From Candidatus Syntrophocurvum alkaliphilum (GTDB lineage Bacteria; Bacillota; Syntrophomonadia; Syntrophomonadales; Syntrophomonadaceae): DNA of 64,000 nucleotides. Shown here piece after piece: positions 5,647 through 57,827 of this stretch. The notes beneath the pieces are model-generated. The model saw only the letters and a list, made by a program, of their open reading frames with translations, made no database searches and was not told where the DNA came from. Location: NCBI RefSeq assembly GCF_009734445.1, contig NZ_CP046457.1, positions 682,001 through 746,000 of the forward strand. The letters run 5' to 3'. Every line of letters starts with the position of its first letter. Position 1 is the stretch's first letter. A program made the position numbers and the translations under genes.

Positions 5647-6486
5647 ATGCAAGTTACAGTCAGTATTTTAGTAGAGAATACAGCCCCAATGCCCTCTGTT
5701 ATAGGAGAATATGGCTTTGCAGCTCTAGTTACTGTAAACAATGAAAACTATTTAATAGACACCGGCAATGGTGATGCAATATTTAAAAATGCTTCTGCTA
5801 TGGGAGAAAATTTAAATGAAGTTTCAAACCTTATTATTAGTCATGGACATTTTGATCATACAGGTGCTGTATCATCTTTATTAAAAATGGGAGGAATCAA
5901 AAAAATCTACGCCCATTCCGCAGTTTTCTCAAAAAGATATATTGTTACTGAAGATGATAAAAAAGATATAGGAAGTTGTTTTAGTCTAGAGGAAGTCCAA
6001 ACTAATAATGCAGAAATGATATTTACTGATAATTTTACTCAAATTGCTCCAAATATTTATTTAACTGGAGCAGTTCCACGTAATAATGATTATGAAGATG
6101 TAGGAAGTTTTGCTGGAGGTAGTTTTAAAACTGAGCATAATGGAAATTTAGTGGATGATACACTTCCAGATGATATAGCCTTAATAATAGATCATCCCGA
6201 TGGTTTAATTATAATAAGTGGATGTGCACATTCAGGTATAGTTAATATTATTAATTACGCAATTGAAAAAACAGGTAGAAAAAAGATACTTAGCTTTATA
6301 GGTGGCACTCACTTGATGACTGCAAGTGACGAACGAATTAATAAAACTATTGAATTTTTAAAGACTTGTAATTTTAGTCAAATAATACCTTGTCATTGCA
6401 CTGGCTTTTATTCTGCTGCTAAACTATATTCAGCATTAGGTAATAAAATTATCAAAGGAGAAGCTGGAATGACTTTTAGGTATTAA
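5647..6486 (+). CDS. MBL-fold metallohydrolase, COG1237 type
   Basis: 279-residue metallo-beta-lactamase fold protein. The zinc motif HGHFDH (66-71) follows LIISH, and the GTH and PCHCTGF blocks lie in the C-terminal half. The pattern fits the archaeal/bacterial group annotated as dihydropterin-ribofuranosylaminobenzene-phosphate synthase-like proteins; for bacterial members that activity is unproved. Start fixed by AAGGAGG. Single gene with its own terminator at 6604-6632. Confidence 0.8.
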   Translation: MQVTVSILVENTAPMPSVIGEYGFAALVTVNNENYLIDTGNGDAIFKNASAMGENLNEVSNLIISHGHFDHTGAVSSLLKMGGIKKIYAHSAVFSKRYIVTEDDKKDIGSCFSLEEVQTNNAEMIFTDNFTQIAPNIYLTGAVPRNNDYEDVGSFAGGSFKTEHNGNLVDDTLPDDIALIIDHPDGLIIISGCAHSGIVNIINYAIEKTGRKKILSFIGGTHLMTASDERINKTIEFLKTCNFSQIIPCHCTGFYSAAKLYSALGNKIIKGEAGMTFRY

Positions 6487-47204: not shown

Positions 47205-48824
47205 ATGATGAATTTAGGTATATATTATAAAAAAAATAAGATAGGTAATAAAATATATGATAAATTAAGTGAGAGCATAAGTGCGATTGAATACCAAGAA
47301 TTTAAAATTAAAAATCAAATATATTTAAATATTCAATTAAAAAAAGAGGGATCTAATTTAAAAAGAGTACTAAATACACCTAAAGCAATAGTAAATACTA
47401 TTTCAAGGGATACACTTTCTGAAATTCTTCAACATAATAATGTGGCTCAAATTAAGGGAAGAGAGTCTATTAATCGTACTTACGAAATATTAATCTTTGA
47501 TTTATCAGTAATCTCTATTAGGCAAATTACTCATACTAGAAATAAAAAAACAGTTAAATATGCAAGTAAAAAAGATGCTAAAAAGGCAGTAGAAATAGCA
47601 TTAAGAGCTCTATACTTGACTGGTCTTGATTTTGGTATGGTAAAGGTGGTATTTACCTCTAGGCATGCATATAAAATAAGGACCATTAATCCGTCACCTA
47701 TTATTAGAGAACGAGATTTTAGTTTGTTTATTAAAAAAATTAAAAGGCTTTATGATAATGAAGGCACAGCAAAAAATGCAAATATAAAGATGGGCGCTGA
47801 TCCTGAATTTATGTTAATAAATGCTAATAGTGGCAGATTAATAGCAGCATCAAAATATTTTCCGAGGGAAGGTACTGTTGGTTGTGATAGCATTAGGATA
47901 CCAAATCGTCAACAACGTCCAATTGCTGAAATAAGGCCAGCCCCTGAAGAATCTCCATTAGAATTACTTGACAACATAAAGAAAGCATTAAATAATGCTA
48001 ATAAAATGGCTCCCTATAAAAATGTAAAATGGATTGCAGGAAGCCTACCTGTGAGTGGATATCCAATTGGTGGGCATATTCATTTTAGCAAAATTAAATC
48101 TAATTATAGCATATTAAGAGCTTTAGATAATTATATTTGCATTCCTATTTTTTTAATTGAAAACCCAAGAACAGCAACAATACGTAGAAAAAAATATGGT
48201 TTTTTATTTGACTATAGAGAAAAAGATTATGGGGGGTTTGAGTATAGAACCCCTGGAAGTTGGTTAGTATCACAAGAAGTTGCTACAGCTATATTATGTT
48301 TAGCAAAAGTTGTAGCTAGTCATTATTACGAATTAAGAAGGAATTTCTTTTTAAATGTAGAAGCGCATAAAGCTTTTTATTCTGGCAATCAGAACTATTT
48401 TAAACCTATATTTAGAAAATTATGGAGTGATATTGAACAAACCAGTTCATATATTTTCTATGAAAAAGAACTAAAAACCCTATATACTATGATTTTTAAC
48501 AATGATTTATGGAATGAAAAAGATGATTTAAGAAAAGCTTGGGAAGTTTCTTGGAATAATAAAAAATCTTCTAGTAACAAAAATAAATCCAGAAAAACAT
48601 CAACTACATCTACTAGATCCAATTCATCTAGAAACACAAGAAGAAGACCAAGGAGTGTTACTACTCGTACCAATAGTAGAAGCACAAATAGATCATCAAA
48701 TACTGGTAATACAAACAGTAGTCAAAATCAAGAACAGAATAATAGAAACCGGAGTACTGTTACCCAAGGAAGGATAACAGTATCCGGTCCAACAATTCAT
48801 ACACAACCATTAAGATTTTATTAG
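47205..48824 (+). CDS. amidoligase (phiEco32 type-2 like) with low-complexity tail
   Basis: 539 residues. From about 195, GADPEFMLIN, VGCDSIR, RPIAEIRPAPEESPLELL, GYPIGGHIHFS and DYGGFEYRTPGSWL match the glutamine-synthetase-fold COOH-NH2 ligase type 2 family. The first 190 residues are not recognised. The end (about 452-530) is almost only Ser, Thr, Asn, Arg and Gln, unlike any enzyme domain; it could be a self-substrate, an anchor or a matrix-binding part. Coupled to the ATP-grasp gene before it, and its stop overlaps that of the convergent M14-like gene. Confidence 0.78.
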   Translation: MMNLGIYYKKNKIGNKIYDKLSESISAIEYQEFKIKNQIYLNIQLKKEGSNLKRVLNTPKAIVNTISRDTLSEILQHNNVAQIKGRESINRTYEILIFDLSVISIRQITHTRNKKTVKYASKKDAKKAVEIALRALYLTGLDFGMVKVVFTSRHAYKIRTINPSPIIRERDFSLFIKKIKRLYDNEGTAKNANIKMGADPEFMLINANSGRLIAASKYFPREGTVGCDSIRIPNRQQRPIAEIRPAPEESPLELLDNIKKALNNANKMAPYKNVKWIAGSLPVSGYPIGGHIHFSKIKSNYSILRALDNYICIPIFLIENPRTATIRRKKYGFLFDYREKDYGGFEYRTPGSWLVSQEVATAILCLAKVVASHYYELRRNFFLNVEAHKAFYSGNQNYFKPIFRKLWSDIEQTSSYIFYEKELKTLYTMIFNNDLWNEKDDLRKAWEVSWNNKKSSSNKNKSRKTSTTSTRSNSSRNTRRRPRSVTTRTNSRSTNRSSNTGNTNSSQNQEQNNRNRSTVTQGRITVSGPTIHTQPLRFY

Positions 48825-51163
48825 CGCATACCAGCTTCTTCTAAGAGAATATCAGTAGCTATTAGTTGATTATCTATTCTAGTAGATAAATCCTGTTTCA
48901 TACATGACTCAAAGATGAAAGAATTTACTCCTAGATGTTGTCCAGCACTTCTAGCTAAACTTCCTTGTACTGGATAGGTTAATAAAGTAAATCTTTCTAG
49001 AGAACGAGTTGCGTTTGTATTTAATTCACTAACCATTCTTTCTGCAACAGGTGTCATTTCAGAGTTAGGATAATGAATAACAGTTTGGCCAACTGAATTA
49101 GTTGATGGATTCCTATGAAAATCAAAACCTTCATGCATATCCATTAACCAATCAACATCATAATCTTTTACTACATCGTATATTGCACTAGCTAATACAT
49201 GGCTTGGGTTTCCTGTTCTAGTAGTTGGGAATTCTCTATTTAGGTCACCTTCACCTGGAGCAGAGCGTCTATTAGCTTCAATAGCTAATTTATTTGCTTC
49301 AGGTATTACTAATAAAGTACCTTTATTAGGAGAATATTCTTTAACTTTGTTTGCAGCATGATATCCTGCAATTTCACTACCATGTATACCACCAACAATC
49401 AGAACAGTTGGACCGGGAACTCCACTATCTATAATATAAAGTTCAGTAGCATATTTAGTACCCGGTGCAAGAATTTCAACCTCTCTAGTTTCGCTAATTT
49501 CTGGATCGGAAACTTCAATCATATTTAATTGATGAAGAAGCATAGTAACAGTTCTTATTTGATAGTCAATTCTAGTATCTAAATCATCTTTAAGAGTACT
49601 TTCAAATATAAAAGAATTAACTCCTAAAATTTCAGCTGTACTTCTTGTAAGACTACCATGAGCAGGAAATCTTAATACTGAAAAATGCTCAGATGAATTA
49701 GTAATTGATCTGTTCAATGCAGCATTAGCTCTTTCTACAAATCCTTGGGTTTCTCCTACTGGTTGATAAATAAAAGTTTGTCCAAAAGCTCTATCACTTG
49801 AAGAAATATGATAATCATGTCCTTCATGCATGTCCATAAGCCAATCAACATCATATTCTTCGATAACATCAAAAATTTCTTGAGCTAAGAAATGATCAGC
49901 ATTTCCATTATCACTTCTAGGAAATACACGGTTCATATCAGGCTCTCCGGAAACAGTTCTTTGATTAATGTCAATTGCAGGCTTATTAGCCTCTGGTAAA
50001 ACTAATAAAGTGCCTCTTTCAATTTCAAAATCTTTAACTTTTTCGGCAGTCTTATAACCAGCAACACCATGACCATGAATACCACCAACAACCATAACAG
50101 TTGGGCCTGGTACTTCACCTTCGATAACATACATCTCAGTTTCATAGTCTGTGTCTCTAGCTAAAGTAAAAGTATTATAGTTTTCTTCAACTGGCTTTTC
50201 TTCAATTTCTTTCATATTAATTTCTTGAAGAAGCATAGTAACAGTTCTTATTTGGTAGTCAATTCTAGTATCTAAATCATCTTTAAGAGTACTTTCAAAT
50301 ATAAAAGAATTAACTCCTAAAATTTCAGCTGTACTTCTAGCAAGACTACCATGAGCAGGAAATCTTAATACTGAAAAATGCTCTGATGAACGTAATATAG
50401 TTCTGTTAAGCTCATCATTAGCTTTTTCAACAAACTCTTGGGTTTCACCTACAGGTTGATAAATAAAAGTTTGTCCAAAAGCTCTATCACTTGAAGAAAT
50501 GTGATAATCATGTCCTTCATGCATGTCCATAAGCCAATCAACATCATATTCTTCAATCACATCAAAAATCTCTTGAGCTAAGAAATGATCAGCATTTTCA
50601 TTATCACTTTTAGGAAACACACGATTCATATCAGGCTCTCCTGAAACAGTTCGTTGATTAATGTCAATTGCAGGCTTATTAGCTTCTGGTAAAACTAATA
50701 AAGTACCTCTTTCAATTTCAAAATCTTTAACTTTTTCGGCAGCTTTATAACCAGCAACACCATGACCATGAATACCTCCAACTACCATAACAGTTGGACC
50801 TGGTACTTCACTTTCGATGACATACATCTCTGTTTCATAGTCTGTGTCTCTAGCTAAAACTATCTTATTGGGATCTTCTAGTTCTGGGTTTACTATGGGA
50901 TCTATCAAACTACTGGGAATAGTAAGATTATAATCTGAACCACTTAAGGTTAGAAATGATTCAAATGTTGATCCATTAAAATTAAATTCGATAGGAACTT
51001 CTTTAGAATTGTCATTGTCACCTATGGTAATGTCAAATGTACCAGAATAGGTGTCAGTTGCTGCTTTTACTTCCTCCAATCCAACAAAAGCAACAAAAAC
51101 AAGAATAATTGCTAGTATTACGGATGAGAGCATACATTTACCTTGATGTCTTACTTTTTGCAT
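48821..51163 (-). CDS. secreted protein with three tandem M14/AstE-like domains
   Basis: 780 residues with signal peptide (cut after about 35, VKAA) and a beta-rich lead region (36-98). Three related domains follow: about 100-320, 333-550 and 560-780. The third has GGIHGSEIAGY and MDMHEG, the H-x-x-E and H zinc ligands of M14/succinylglutamate-desuccinylase-like enzymes. Domains 1 and 2, nearly identical to each other, read GGIHGHGVAGY, so the Glu ligand is replaced. Only domain 3 looks fully catalytic. Outer-surface carboxypeptidase or amidase is likely. AAGGGAAGG upstream of the ATG. Confidence 0.8.
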   Translation of the reverse strand: MQKVRHQGKCMLSSVILAIILVFVAFVGLEEVKAATDTYSGTFDITIGDNDNSKEVPIEFNFNGSTFESFLTLSGSDYNLTIPSSLIDPIVNPELEDPNKIVLARDTDYETEMYVIESEVPGPTVMVVGGIHGHGVAGYKAAEKVKDFEIERGTLLVLPEANKPAIDINQRTVSGEPDMNRVFPKSDNENADHFLAQEIFDVIEEYDVDWLMDMHEGHDYHISSSDRAFGQTFIYQPVGETQEFVEKANDELNRTILRSSEHFSVLRFPAHGSLARSTAEILGVNSFIFESTLKDDLDTRIDYQIRTVTMLLQEINMKEIEEKPVEENYNTFTLARDTDYETEMYVIEGEVPGPTVMVVGGIHGHGVAGYKTAEKVKDFEIERGTLLVLPEANKPAIDINQRTVSGEPDMNRVFPRSDNGNADHFLAQEIFDVIEEYDVDWLMDMHEGHDYHISSSDRAFGQTFIYQPVGETQGFVERANAALNRSITNSSEHFSVLRFPAHGSLTRSTAEILGVNSFIFESTLKDDLDTRIDYQIRTVTMLLHQLNMIEVSDPEISETREVEILAPGTKYATELYIIDSGVPGPTVLIVGGIHGSEIAGYHAANKVKEYSPNKGTLLVIPEANKLAIEANRRSAPGEGDLNREFPTTRTGNPSHVLASAIYDVVKDYDVDWLMDMHEGFDFHRNPSTNSVGQTVIHYPNSEMTPVAERMVSELNTNATRSLERFTLLTYPVQGSLARSAGQHLGVNSFIFESCMKQDLSTRIDNQLIATDILLEEAGMR
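49460..50870. repeat. tandem duplication inside the M14-like gene
   Basis: The DNA for domain 2 (about 49520-50160) and domain 1 (about 50210-50860) is nearly identical over about 650 bases, including long exact runs, while domain 3 is diverged. This points to a recent duplication and a risk of recombination or assembly collapse. Confidence 0.75.
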
Positions 51164-55123: not shown

Positions 55124-56263
55124 TTATGCTTCATAATAGTTTCCTAAAAATGCGAAAAAATCAGGGCTATTTTCCATTTCGCAGATAAGATTTAATATTT
55201 CTTCTGAGTGTACGTATCCCTCAAAATCAATATAAAACATAAATTCAAAATCACTACCTGGTATAGGCCGGCTTTCTAGTTTAGTCATATTTATTCCTAA
55301 TGCAGAAAATTTTGAAATAATCCTATATAATGACCCTGGGCGATGAGGAATAGTAAAAATTAAGCTGATTTTATTTGCACCTGGATATATTTCCATGTCT
55401 TTAGATATGCAAATAAAACGTGTATAGTTATTATCACTATTTTGAATATCAGTCGCAAGCACTCCGAGGTTGTATAATTCGGCACAATTCATTGAAGAAA
55501 TAGCTGCAATGTTATTCTTTCCTGAATCAAATACTTTTTTTGCAGCAACAGCAGTATTTTCACAAGGTATTACTTTTACACCTTTTAAGCTTTCTAAATA
55601 TTTACTACACTGTGCAAATGCTTGTTCATGGGAATAAATTTCATTTATTTCTTCAAGCTTTGTTCCCTTATTAGCTAGCAATACATGATTGATTTTCAAT
55701 TTGATACTTCTGGCAATATAAAACTTATATTTTTTCATAAGATCGTAAACCTCTGTTACTGAACCATGCAAATTATTTTCAATCGGCAATATTCCATAAT
55801 TGCACAAACCTTTATCAACTGCTGTAAATACTGCATCAAAACTATTCATATACATAATCGTAGGACGTGAAAATAGTTTCTCACAAGCAAATTGAGAATT
55901 AGCACCCTCAATTCCTTGACAAGCAACAGCAGCACTATTAGGAAATATTTTGGAAGTATTTAAAAGTGCACTTTTTATTTCTTCTGCCATGTTTGAATTA
56001 ATATACATTCTTCTACTTTGATATGAACGAGAAATATCAAAAAGCGTTGTGAAAAAAATCTTTGTATACTGAGCCATTTCATCTGTTTGCTGTTCTGTAA
56101 CACGATTAATAATATCACGCTCACGAGCTGTACCAAGTATAGGTGAATTTTTCTTCATTTTATAGTCTGTAATTTCTGAAATTAATGCCATTCGATCTTC
56201 AAACAATCTTGTCATTTCATTATCGATATTGTCAATTTTTTTTCTGATTTCATCAAAATTCAT
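55124..56263 (-). CDS. pheA: bifunctional chorismate mutase / prephenate dehydratase
   Basis: 379 residues: AroQ chorismate mutase (1-90, IRKKIDNIDNEMTRLFEDR), prephenate dehydratase (about 105-285, QGIEGANSQFACEKLF, GILPIENNLHGSVTEVYDLM) and a C-terminal ACT domain (about 298-375) with RPGSLYRI and LESRPIPG, the phenylalanine feedback site. It turns chorismate to phenylpyruvate. Transcribed after aroF with a gap of about 140 bases; the pair is under the leader attenuators at 57454-57766. AAAGGAGG start. Confidence 0.94.
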   Translation of the reverse strand: MNFDEIRKKIDNIDNEMTRLFEDRMALISEITDYKMKKNSPILGTARERDIINRVTEQQTDEMAQYTKIFFTTLFDISRSYQSRRMYINSNMAEEIKSALLNTSKIFPNSAAVACQGIEGANSQFACEKLFSRPTIMYMNSFDAVFTAVDKGLCNYGILPIENNLHGSVTEVYDLMKKYKFYIARSIKLKINHVLLANKGTKLEEINEIYSHEQAFAQCSKYLESLKGVKVIPCENTAVAAKKVFDSGKNNIAAISSMNCAELYNLGVLATDIQNSDNNYTRFICISKDMEIYPGANKISLIFTIPHRPGSLYRIISKFSALGINMTKLESRPIPGSDFEFMFYIDFEGYVHSEEILNLICEMENSPDFFAFLGNYYEA

Positions 56264-56401: not shown

Positions 56402-57412
56402 TTAATAAAATTTATTTATTATAGGTAATAGCTCATTCACATGAGCTGACAACTCACTGAACGCTTCCGGTGTTATTGATTGTTGCCCATCACACATTGC
56501 GTTTGCTGGATCGTTGTGAACTTCAATTATTAGACCATCTGCCCCAGCAGCTACAGCGGCAAGTGACATTGATTTAACATATTTAGCATATCCGGTAGAA
56601 TGACTTGGATCTATAACCACCGGTAAATGTGTGAGCTCCTTTAAAACAGGAATTGAAGCTAAATCAAGTGTGTTCCTTGTTGTTGTTTCAAATGTTCTAA
56701 TTCCTCGTTCACAGAGGATAACCTCTTCATTGCCACCGGCCATAATGTATTCTGCACTCATAAGAAGCTCTTGAATTGTAGCAGAAAATCCTCTTTTCAA
56801 TAATACTGGTTTATTTATTTTTCCTAATGCTTTAAGCAACTCAAAATTATGCATATTTCTTGCACCAACTTGAATAATATCGATATTATCAAACAACGGT
56901 AATTGGGAAATATCCATAATTTCTGATATTATTGGCAGTCCAATTTCTTTTTTTGCCTCAAGCATAAGCTCTATGCCATCAGCACGAAGTCCTTGGAACG
57001 CATAAGGAGATGTGCGTGGTTTAAAAGCACCACCACGTAAAATTGCAGCACCTGAGGATTTAACGGAAGAAGCAATCATGCATATTTGCTCATGTGATTC
57101 AACAGCACAAGGTCCTGCTATCATTGCAAAGTTTCCACCACCAATTTTAACATCACCAATAGATATTATAGTATCAAGTGGATGAAACCTTCTGTTTGCC
57201 TGTTTATAAGGCTCTTGAATTCTTTTAACATCTGCTACAATATCGAGTGCACCTATAAATTCGATATCAATTGTACTTGTATCCCCTACTAATCCTAAAA
57301 CTGTAGAGTGAATACCTTCTATTGTCTGAACATTAATATCCATACTATTAAGCCATTGCTTTAAACTATCAAGCTGTTTTTCTTCTGGATTTTGCTCTAA
57401 CACAATAATCAT
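56402..57412 (-). CDS. aroF: DAHP synthase with N-terminal ferredoxin-like domain
   Basis: 336 residues. The first 70 form the ferredoxin-like regulatory domain of the AroA-beta/AroF group; the catalytic barrel has IAGPCAVESHEQ, RGGAFKPRTSPYAFQG, VGARNMHNFELL, KRGFSATIQELLMSAEYIMAGGNEEVILCERGIR (split blocks) and VIDPSHSTGY. It condenses erythrose-4-phosphate with PEP, the entry to aromatic synthesis. AAAGGAG start. It is directly behind the second Phe attenuator, so both first and Phe-specific steps are controlled together. Confidence 0.94.
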   Translation of the reverse strand: MIIVLEQNPEEKQLDSLKQWLNSMDINVQTIEGIHSTVLGLVGDTSTIDIEFIGALDIVADVKRIQEPYKQANRRFHPLDTIISIGDVKIGGGNFAMIAGPCAVESHEQICMIASSVKSSGAAILRGGAFKPRTSPYAFQGLRADGIELMLEAKKEIGLPIISEIMDISQLPLFDNIDIIQVGARNMHNFELLKALGKINKPVLLKRGFSATIQELLMSAEYIMAGGNEEVILCERGIRTFETTTRNTLDLASIPVLKELTHLPVVIDPSHSTGYAKYVKSMSLAAVAAGADGLIIEVHNDPANAMCDGQQSITPEAFSELSAHVNELLPIINKFY

Positions 57413-57453: not shown

Positions 57454-57494
57454 AAAAAAATCCCACCCAGTCGAGCTGACTGAGTGGGATTTTT
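57454..57494 (-). terminator. attenuator terminator 2 (before aroF)
   Basis: On the minus strand ATCCCACTCAGTC pairs with GACTGGGTGGGAT around AGCTC, followed by TTTTTTT, 42 bases before the aroF start. The leader between peptide 2 and this hairpin holds ACTGA and GTGAGG, which can pair with TCAGT and CCCAC of its 5' arm to form a competing stem. Confidence 0.88.
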
Positions 57495-57520
57495 ATAGTC
57501 CTCACTTATTTCAGTACAAC

Positions 57521-57595
57521 TCAACAAAGCCTTGTAAAAAATACAAAGCCAAAAAAGAATACAAAGCTAATTGTTGAGTTGTGTAAGTTATTCAT
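57521..57595 (-). CDS. phenylalanine-rich leader peptide 2
   Basis: 24-residue frame from ATG at 57595 to TGA at 57521, with the strong site GGAGGAAGG before it. It begins MNNLHNSTIS and continues FVFFFGFVFF, then TRLC: seven Phe in ten positions. ACAACTCAACAA in codons 5-9 pairs perfectly with TTGTTGAGTTGT at its end. A ribosome stalled on Phe codons would cover the first arm and alter folding before terminator 2. This is the classical pheL design. Confidence 0.85.
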   Translation of the reverse strand: MNNLHNSTISFVFFFGFVFFTRLC

Positions 57596-57628
57596 TTTCC
57601 TTCCTCCAAATAATTAAATAATATAAAA

Positions 57629-57667
57629 CAAAAAACCTCGGTAATTACAACGTATTACCGAGGTTTT
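57629..57667 (-). terminator. attenuator terminator 1
   Basis: Minus-strand AAAACCTCGGTAAT pairs perfectly with ATTACCGAGGTTTT (14 bp), followed by a TTTTTTG tail. The upstream sequence TATTGCCGAAG (57687-57697), just after the stop of leader peptide 1, can pair with TCGGTAAT of the 5' arm (one G-U) as an antiterminator. Confidence 0.88.
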
Positions 57668-57697
57668 AACTCTAATTAAAAATCGTCTTCGGCAATA

Positions 57698-57766
57698 CTA
57701 AATAACCTTACTAAAGAAATTAGTAAAGCTAAAAAAGCTATTGCTAAAAACGAAATTATTATACAT
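57698..57766 (-). CDS. phenylalanine-rich leader peptide 1
   Basis: 22-residue frame from ATG at 57766 to TAG at 57698, with AAGGGG seven bases upstream. It has Phe at positions 5, 7, 11, 12, 14, 17 and 18 plus one Tyr (MYNNFVFSNSFFSFTNFFS). GCAATA inside its codons can pair with TATTGC right after it, giving the 1:2 hairpin expected when translation does not stall. The neighbouring +1 frame looks like a membrane helix but has no start codon. Confidence 0.8.
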   Translation of the reverse strand: MYNNFVFSNSFFSFTNFFSKVI

Positions 57767-57798: not shown

Positions 57799-57827
57799 AT
57801 TAAACATGTTATTTTATAAATTGTCAA
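57799..57827 (-). promoter_or_regulatory. promoter of the aroF-pheA leader
   Basis: Minus-strand TTGACA (57827-57822), 17 bases, TTTAAT (57804-57799), about 20-30 bases before the ribosome site of leader peptide 1. Confidence 0.65.

Follow-up and report, generated by a model that had tools for sequence, protein, structure and literature searches.

What do two phenylalanine-rich leader peptides, each followed by its own terminator, do in front of a single aroF-pheA operon? Candidatus Syntrophocurvum alkaliphilum is a bacterium of soda lakes. The genome of Ca. Syntrophocurvum alkaliphilum B(2M) (CP046457, Syntrophomonadaceae) consists of one contig of 2,360,781 bp (PMC7005122). We analyzed a stretch of 64,000 nucleotides of this genome (the window), in which the minus strand carries, in this order, a promoter-like site, unit 1, unit 2, aroF and pheA. 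We conclude that both units are probably ribosome-mediated transcription attenuators that sense charged tRNA-Phe and are placed in series on one aroF-pheA transcript.

Anatomy of the aroF-pheA leader

The aroF gene (56402..57412, minus strand) encodes 3-deoxy-7-phosphoheptulonate (DAHP) synthase, as identified by NCBIfam NF006421/TIGR01361. The pheA gene (55124..56263, minus strand) encodes chorismate mutase/prephenate dehydratase, and NCBIfam matches were obtained for both domains, with scores short of the cut-offs curated for the best-matching models. The leader extends over about 57792-57412 (minus strand) and contains two whole units. Upstream of it, a likely promoter was read from the sequence (57799..57827, minus strand), composed of TTGACA (57827-57822), a 17-nt spacer and TTTAAT (57804-57799); it is absent from the list of the consensus promoter scan because its -10 element lacks an A at position 2. 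Elsewhere in the window, a 780-aa ORF (48821-51163, minus strand) contains one domain three times, with two of the repeats near-identical.

The first-pass annotation had described two Phe-rich peptides of 22 and 24 codons with seven Phe each, a ribosome site and a strong terminator for each unit, and alternative hairpins in both. All of these elements were found. The leader peptide of unit 1, MYNNFVFSNSFFSFTNFFSKVI (22 codons, 7 Phe; 57766..57698, minus strand), is preceded by the Shine-Dalgarno sequence AAGGGGA (57779-57773, minus strand); it was identified by ORF reading, by homologous leaders (L162 and L202-L205) and by a match to the covariance model R1 described below. Segment 2 (UAUUGCCGA; 57689..57697, minus strand) lies immediately 3' of the stop codon, and pairing analysis gave it two alternative partners, segment 1 (57745-57739), with which it forms the 1:2 pairing GCAATA/TATTGC, and segment 3 (57661-57653), with which it forms the antiterminator TATTGCCGA/TCGGTAATA. 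The terminator of unit 1 (57667-57630, minus strand) has a 14-bp stem of -18.4 kcal/mol followed by a T run, and its stem shows compensatory changes in relatives.

Unit 2 has the same order of parts. Its leader peptide, MNNLHNSTISFVFFFGFVFFTRLC (24 codons, 7 Phe; 57595..57521, minus strand), follows the Shine-Dalgarno sequence GGAGGAAGG (57607-57599, minus strand), resembles the L152, L153 and L158 leaders and also matches R1. The perfect 1:2 hairpin claimed for this unit is present as an outer stem of 12 bp, ACAACTCAACAA/TTGTTGAGTTGT, in which 57582-57571 pairs with 57527-57516 (57516..57582, minus strand). The antiterminator, which had been proposed as a bulged helix, is an 11-bp helix with a single bulged U, GAGTTG-T-ACTGA/TCAGTCAGCTC, formed by 57522-57511 with 57483-57473 (57473..57522, minus strand). 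The terminator (57494-57454, minus strand) reaches about -25 kcal/mol and ends in 7 T. The first reading had overlooked a further hairpin inside each ORF that presents the Phe codons in its loop and is kept in relatives. In unit 1 this hairpin is AGCUUUACUAA/UUAGUAAGGUU (57704..57730, minus strand), and in unit 2 it is GGCUUUGUA/UACAAGGCU (57528..57550, minus strand), the counterpart of GGCUUUUCA..GAAAGGUC in L152-L159.

Dinucleotide-preserving shuffles of the leader produced no complete unit and no terminator comparable to those of the leader (0 of 1000 each), and one Phe-rich ORF with a Shine-Dalgarno sequence appeared in 10 of 1000. In both units, a short ORF has a ribosome site and a cluster of codons for the end product, and an intrinsic terminator lies between this ORF and the gene. 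Pairing between segment 2 and the terminator arm was stronger than in shuffles (p 0.03 for unit 1 and 0.013 for unit 2).

The effect of the ribosome was modeled by folding with the ribosome footprint masked. With a ribosome at the Phe codons, the 5' arm of the terminator was paired upstream with a mean probability of ~0.6 in unit 1 and 0.81 in unit 2, versus 0.29 and 0.34, respectively, with a ribosome at the stop codon. Segment 2 begins at the stop codon or just 3' of it in both units. In these folds, the antiterminator excludes the terminator in either unit, and a ribosome at the stop codon covers segment 2.

A search of the leader against Rfam at gathering score returned no family, neither a T-box nor another riboswitch; the first-pass annotation had named a match of either kind as the result that would speak against its reading. 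Phe_leader (RF01859) matched unit 2 only, at 25.6 bits where the gathering score is 55. The other matches at permissive thresholds (trpB RF04312, rli38 and others) were, like this one, mostly alignments of a terminator and its T run. T-box RF00230 had no match in the window and ten matches elsewhere in the same genome, indicating that this organism employs T-boxes together with a leader-peptide system.

That the leader is instead of a T-box, riboswitch or protein-binding type, with incidental Phe-rich ORFs, could be entertained because other genes of the genome are under T-boxes and because the orthologous aroF of some relatives (L012 and L192) is preceded by a T-box rather than by a leader-peptide attenuator, a case in which the sensing system is switched at one gene. 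The empty Rfam result at gathering score, the nature of the matches below it and the retention of the Phe codons in relatives make such an identity extremely improbable, and a T-box or riboswitch was rejected.

A family of leaders upstream of clostridial aroF

The first-pass annotation had called attenuation of this type rarely described in Firmicutes, but before clostridial aroF single units are frequent. A unit detector, which scanned 600 bases upstream of each gene and missed some terminators, found complete units at 89 of 269 aroF loci, distributed over at least 24 families of the AroF tree. Two complete units were present at one of the 89 unit-bearing loci, that of Ca. Syntrophocurvum alkaliphilum; since the detector covers 600 bases and misses some terminators, this uniqueness is a statement on the sample.

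A rule for the peptide itself (ATG start, Shine-Dalgarno sequence and at least 6 Phe/Tyr/Trp within 12 codons) was passed by 104 loci with 89 distinct peptides. The median F/(F+Y) was 0.80 in pheA-linked leaders (n = 9) versus 0.56 in the others (n = 80), with a one-sided Mann-Whitney p of 3.4e-5 (1.2e-4 without this genome) that overstates independence because the leaders share descent. This bias toward Phe is in the direction expected on the condition that the codons are the sensor. Two Deltaproteobacteria MAGs (L017 and L018) have leader peptides containing Trp, Phe and Tyr and a terminator before aroF, and the antiterminator potential of L017 is strong.

Model R1 is a covariance model built from an alignment of the leaders of ten relatives, with unit 1 and unit 2 both left out. 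Searched against the window, it scored unit 1 with 63.8 bits (E 2.7e-12); unit 2 followed with 37.5 bits (E 1.5e-6), and the next match had an E value of 0.057. Genome-wide, the two units again ranked at the top, with E values of 9.9e-11 and 5.7e-5 against 0.03 for the match after them. Both units are thus significant in a model made without this genome, which places them in the clostridial aroF leader family. In 149 genomes related to the source of the closest AroF, R1 found one match each in 13 and never two. A second, weak R1 match in L152 (376-518) proved to be sequence resembling a terminator and was discarded. A genome search with the leader DNA gave no convincing further copy.

Alignment with related leaders, proposed earlier as a check on the Phe codons and the stems, bore out most of the structure. 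The Phe codons, the terminators and the antiterminator pairing recur, and the terminator pairs covary: changes on both sides were seen in 6 of 11 pairs of the terminator stems of the ten relatives, and unit 1 fits the pattern. One antiterminator pair of unit 1 is A-U versus G-C or G-U in relatives, and the terminator pair at this position changes too. The mutually exclusive stems of unit 2 differ from those of its nearest relatives. The part of the check that fell short was covariation of the antiterminator, which is weak because segment 2 is near-invariant within genera; inside close groups, variation in the antiterminator helices was one-sided or absent. Support for the antiterminator comes from the energies of individual leaders across families. 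Among 79 leaders, these energies had a median z of -1.48, and 28 leaders reached p < 0.05 versus about 4 expected.

The genome also has a second aroF (G000:C1 ~1293750; locus L283, about 5750-5900, minus strand). This gene and its orthologues in Syntrophomonadaceae and relatives (L086, L092, L094, L095, L102-L104 and L110) are preceded by another conserved leader, composed of GUAGUAUGGUAGGAUGGUGGGAA, a hairpin, a U-rich stretch and UUCUCACC, often with an additional upstream copy of GUAGG. TRAP (PF02081) is encoded in the genome, but the UAG spacing in this leader, 8 nt, differs from the usual spacing. Counts of UAG/GAG in the second-aroF leader were not above those of shuffles, and no Rfam match was obtained for it.

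Origin of the two units

The AroF proteins closest to that of the operon, with up to 74% identity, belong to distant clostridial families, and the best match within its own family reaches 58%. A tree of 140 AroF proteins places it in a strongly supported clade made up mostly of other clostridia, with genus g256 of family f132 as its sister (SH-aLRT 90). This placement among other clostridia suggests that the aroF-pheA operon was acquired horizontally. AroF proteins of the clostridial clade also occur in MAGs labeled Coriobacteriia and Lentisphaerae (L002, L003 and L007), by horizontal transfer or mis-binning.

The two units differ in their nearest relatives. Unit 1 gave its best alignment to leaders from genus g341 (L162, z 10.5 versus shuffles); their ORFs end alike, and their stop codons are followed by GUUGCCG or AUUGCCG. 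For unit 2, the best alignment was to genus g256 leaders (L153, z 7.4), which share its shorter in-ORF hairpin. Compared with each other as DNA, the units gave z 1.1, a similarity no greater than that of shuffles. A recent tandem duplication would account for the equal order of parts and equal number of Phe codons, but the contrast between this mutual score and the scores to L162 and L153 makes it a highly improbable origin. As judged by these alignments, the units belong to the same leader family but have diverged, neither being a copy of the other, and since each resembles a different genus, they appear to have been joined. The resemblance of both unit 2 and aroF to g256 fits arrival of the operon, with its own leader, behind an existing attenuator, and the events may have occurred in this order.

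A joining event of this kind might also have left a single working unit, with the other as its relic; for example, unit 1 could be the older and the operon could have come with unit 2. The mixed affinities of the locus and the lack of a second two-unit locus in the sample agree with such a history. Unit 1, however, retains a start codon, a Shine-Dalgarno sequence, seven Phe codons, the hairpin, an antiterminator and a 14-bp terminator, and a unit that terminates without being regulated would shut off the operon. We therefore consider a relic unlikely and favor two working attenuators.

Proposed mode of action and comparison with known systems

In the proposed mechanism, a ribosome supplied with plentiful Phe would translate the leader ORF to its stop codon, where it would cover segment 2. 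This would keep the terminator's 5' arm free, the terminator would fold and RNA polymerase would halt. Scarce Phe would hold the ribosome at the Phe codons and leave segment 2 exposed, and this segment would bind the 5' arm of the terminator as an antiterminator, so that transcription would proceed. An RNA polymerase bound for aroF would meet two terminators in succession, and the readthrough fractions would multiply if the two act independently.

Action in series depends on where transcription begins. Unit 1 could close a separate short transcript while unit 2 is served by a promoter of its own, and the ~20 AT-rich bases that separate the unit 1 terminator from the unit 2 ribosome site could hide a weak one. 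Against this, the consensus scan lists nothing promoter-like on the minus strand between the units, and TTGACA-17-TTTAAT adjoins unit 1 on its upstream side; independent action of this sort is very improbable. Given a promoter-like site ahead of unit 1 and no listed one between the units, a transcript of aroF-pheA should pass both terminators. Multiplied readthrough would consequently lower the basal level, raise the fold-change and make the response steeper, as the first-pass annotation had supposed in stating that a tandem pair would sharpen the response to Phe.

The fullest form of this proposal is a pair of leader-peptide attenuators for the same amino acid, built by transfer or recombination from two divergent members of the clostridial family and acting as a double, multiplicative lock on the pathway's first step. 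We give this composite about an even chance of being correct. The tandem would be a naturally occurring case in which to test how termination in series affects the shape of a response.

The leader of E. coli pheA (the pheL attenuator, RF01859) has a Phe-rich peptide, an intrinsic terminator and an exclusive antiterminator. The units described here have all three and would regulate the same pathway; they differ in that the E. coli leader is a single unit with no detected sequence relation and that the first controlled gene here is aroF. In Firmicutes, leader-peptide attenuators have been published for His (PMC2965389, PMC9413887) and, for Leu, before ilv-leu of S. aureus (PMC5794164). These are likewise ribosome-mediated transcription attenuators of biosynthesis operons, but they concern other amino acids and genes and are single units. 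The uORFC-13-1 motif, a predicted Phe-coding uORF with a terminator before Acholeplasma aroF, is similar to the present units and also lies outside Proteobacteria (PMC8632094). As compared by description, it differs in having been published from Acholeplasma and environmental sequences only, as a single unit with at least one Phe (PMC8632094).

In the open-licence literature, we did not find the leaders of clostridial aroF described as a class, and the 89 distinct peptides expose a widespread one, with no Rfam gathering-score match in the window. This class alters the view of clostridia as reliant on T-boxes for their aromatic amino acid genes. The same literature yielded no two leader-peptide attenuators for one amino acid in series, and the present pair would be the first with the same signal as far as the literature searched shows.

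Tandem arrangements are known from other systems. In Salmonella mgtCBR, one leader contains two ORFs that each control transcription of one operon, an arrangement termed a singular example by its authors (PMC3641672). The signals there are ATP and proline (PMC3641672), whereas here both are expected to be Phe, and an intrinsic terminator belongs to each unit. Tandem T-boxes are well documented, for instance in trp operons, and like the present pair they place two whole sensors of tRNA charging serially before a Bacillota biosynthesis operon (PMC12452182). T-boxes bind the tRNA directly, whereas the sensor here would be the translating ribosome. If the proposed double lock is real, attenuators based on leader peptides are, like T-boxes, modules that can be stacked.
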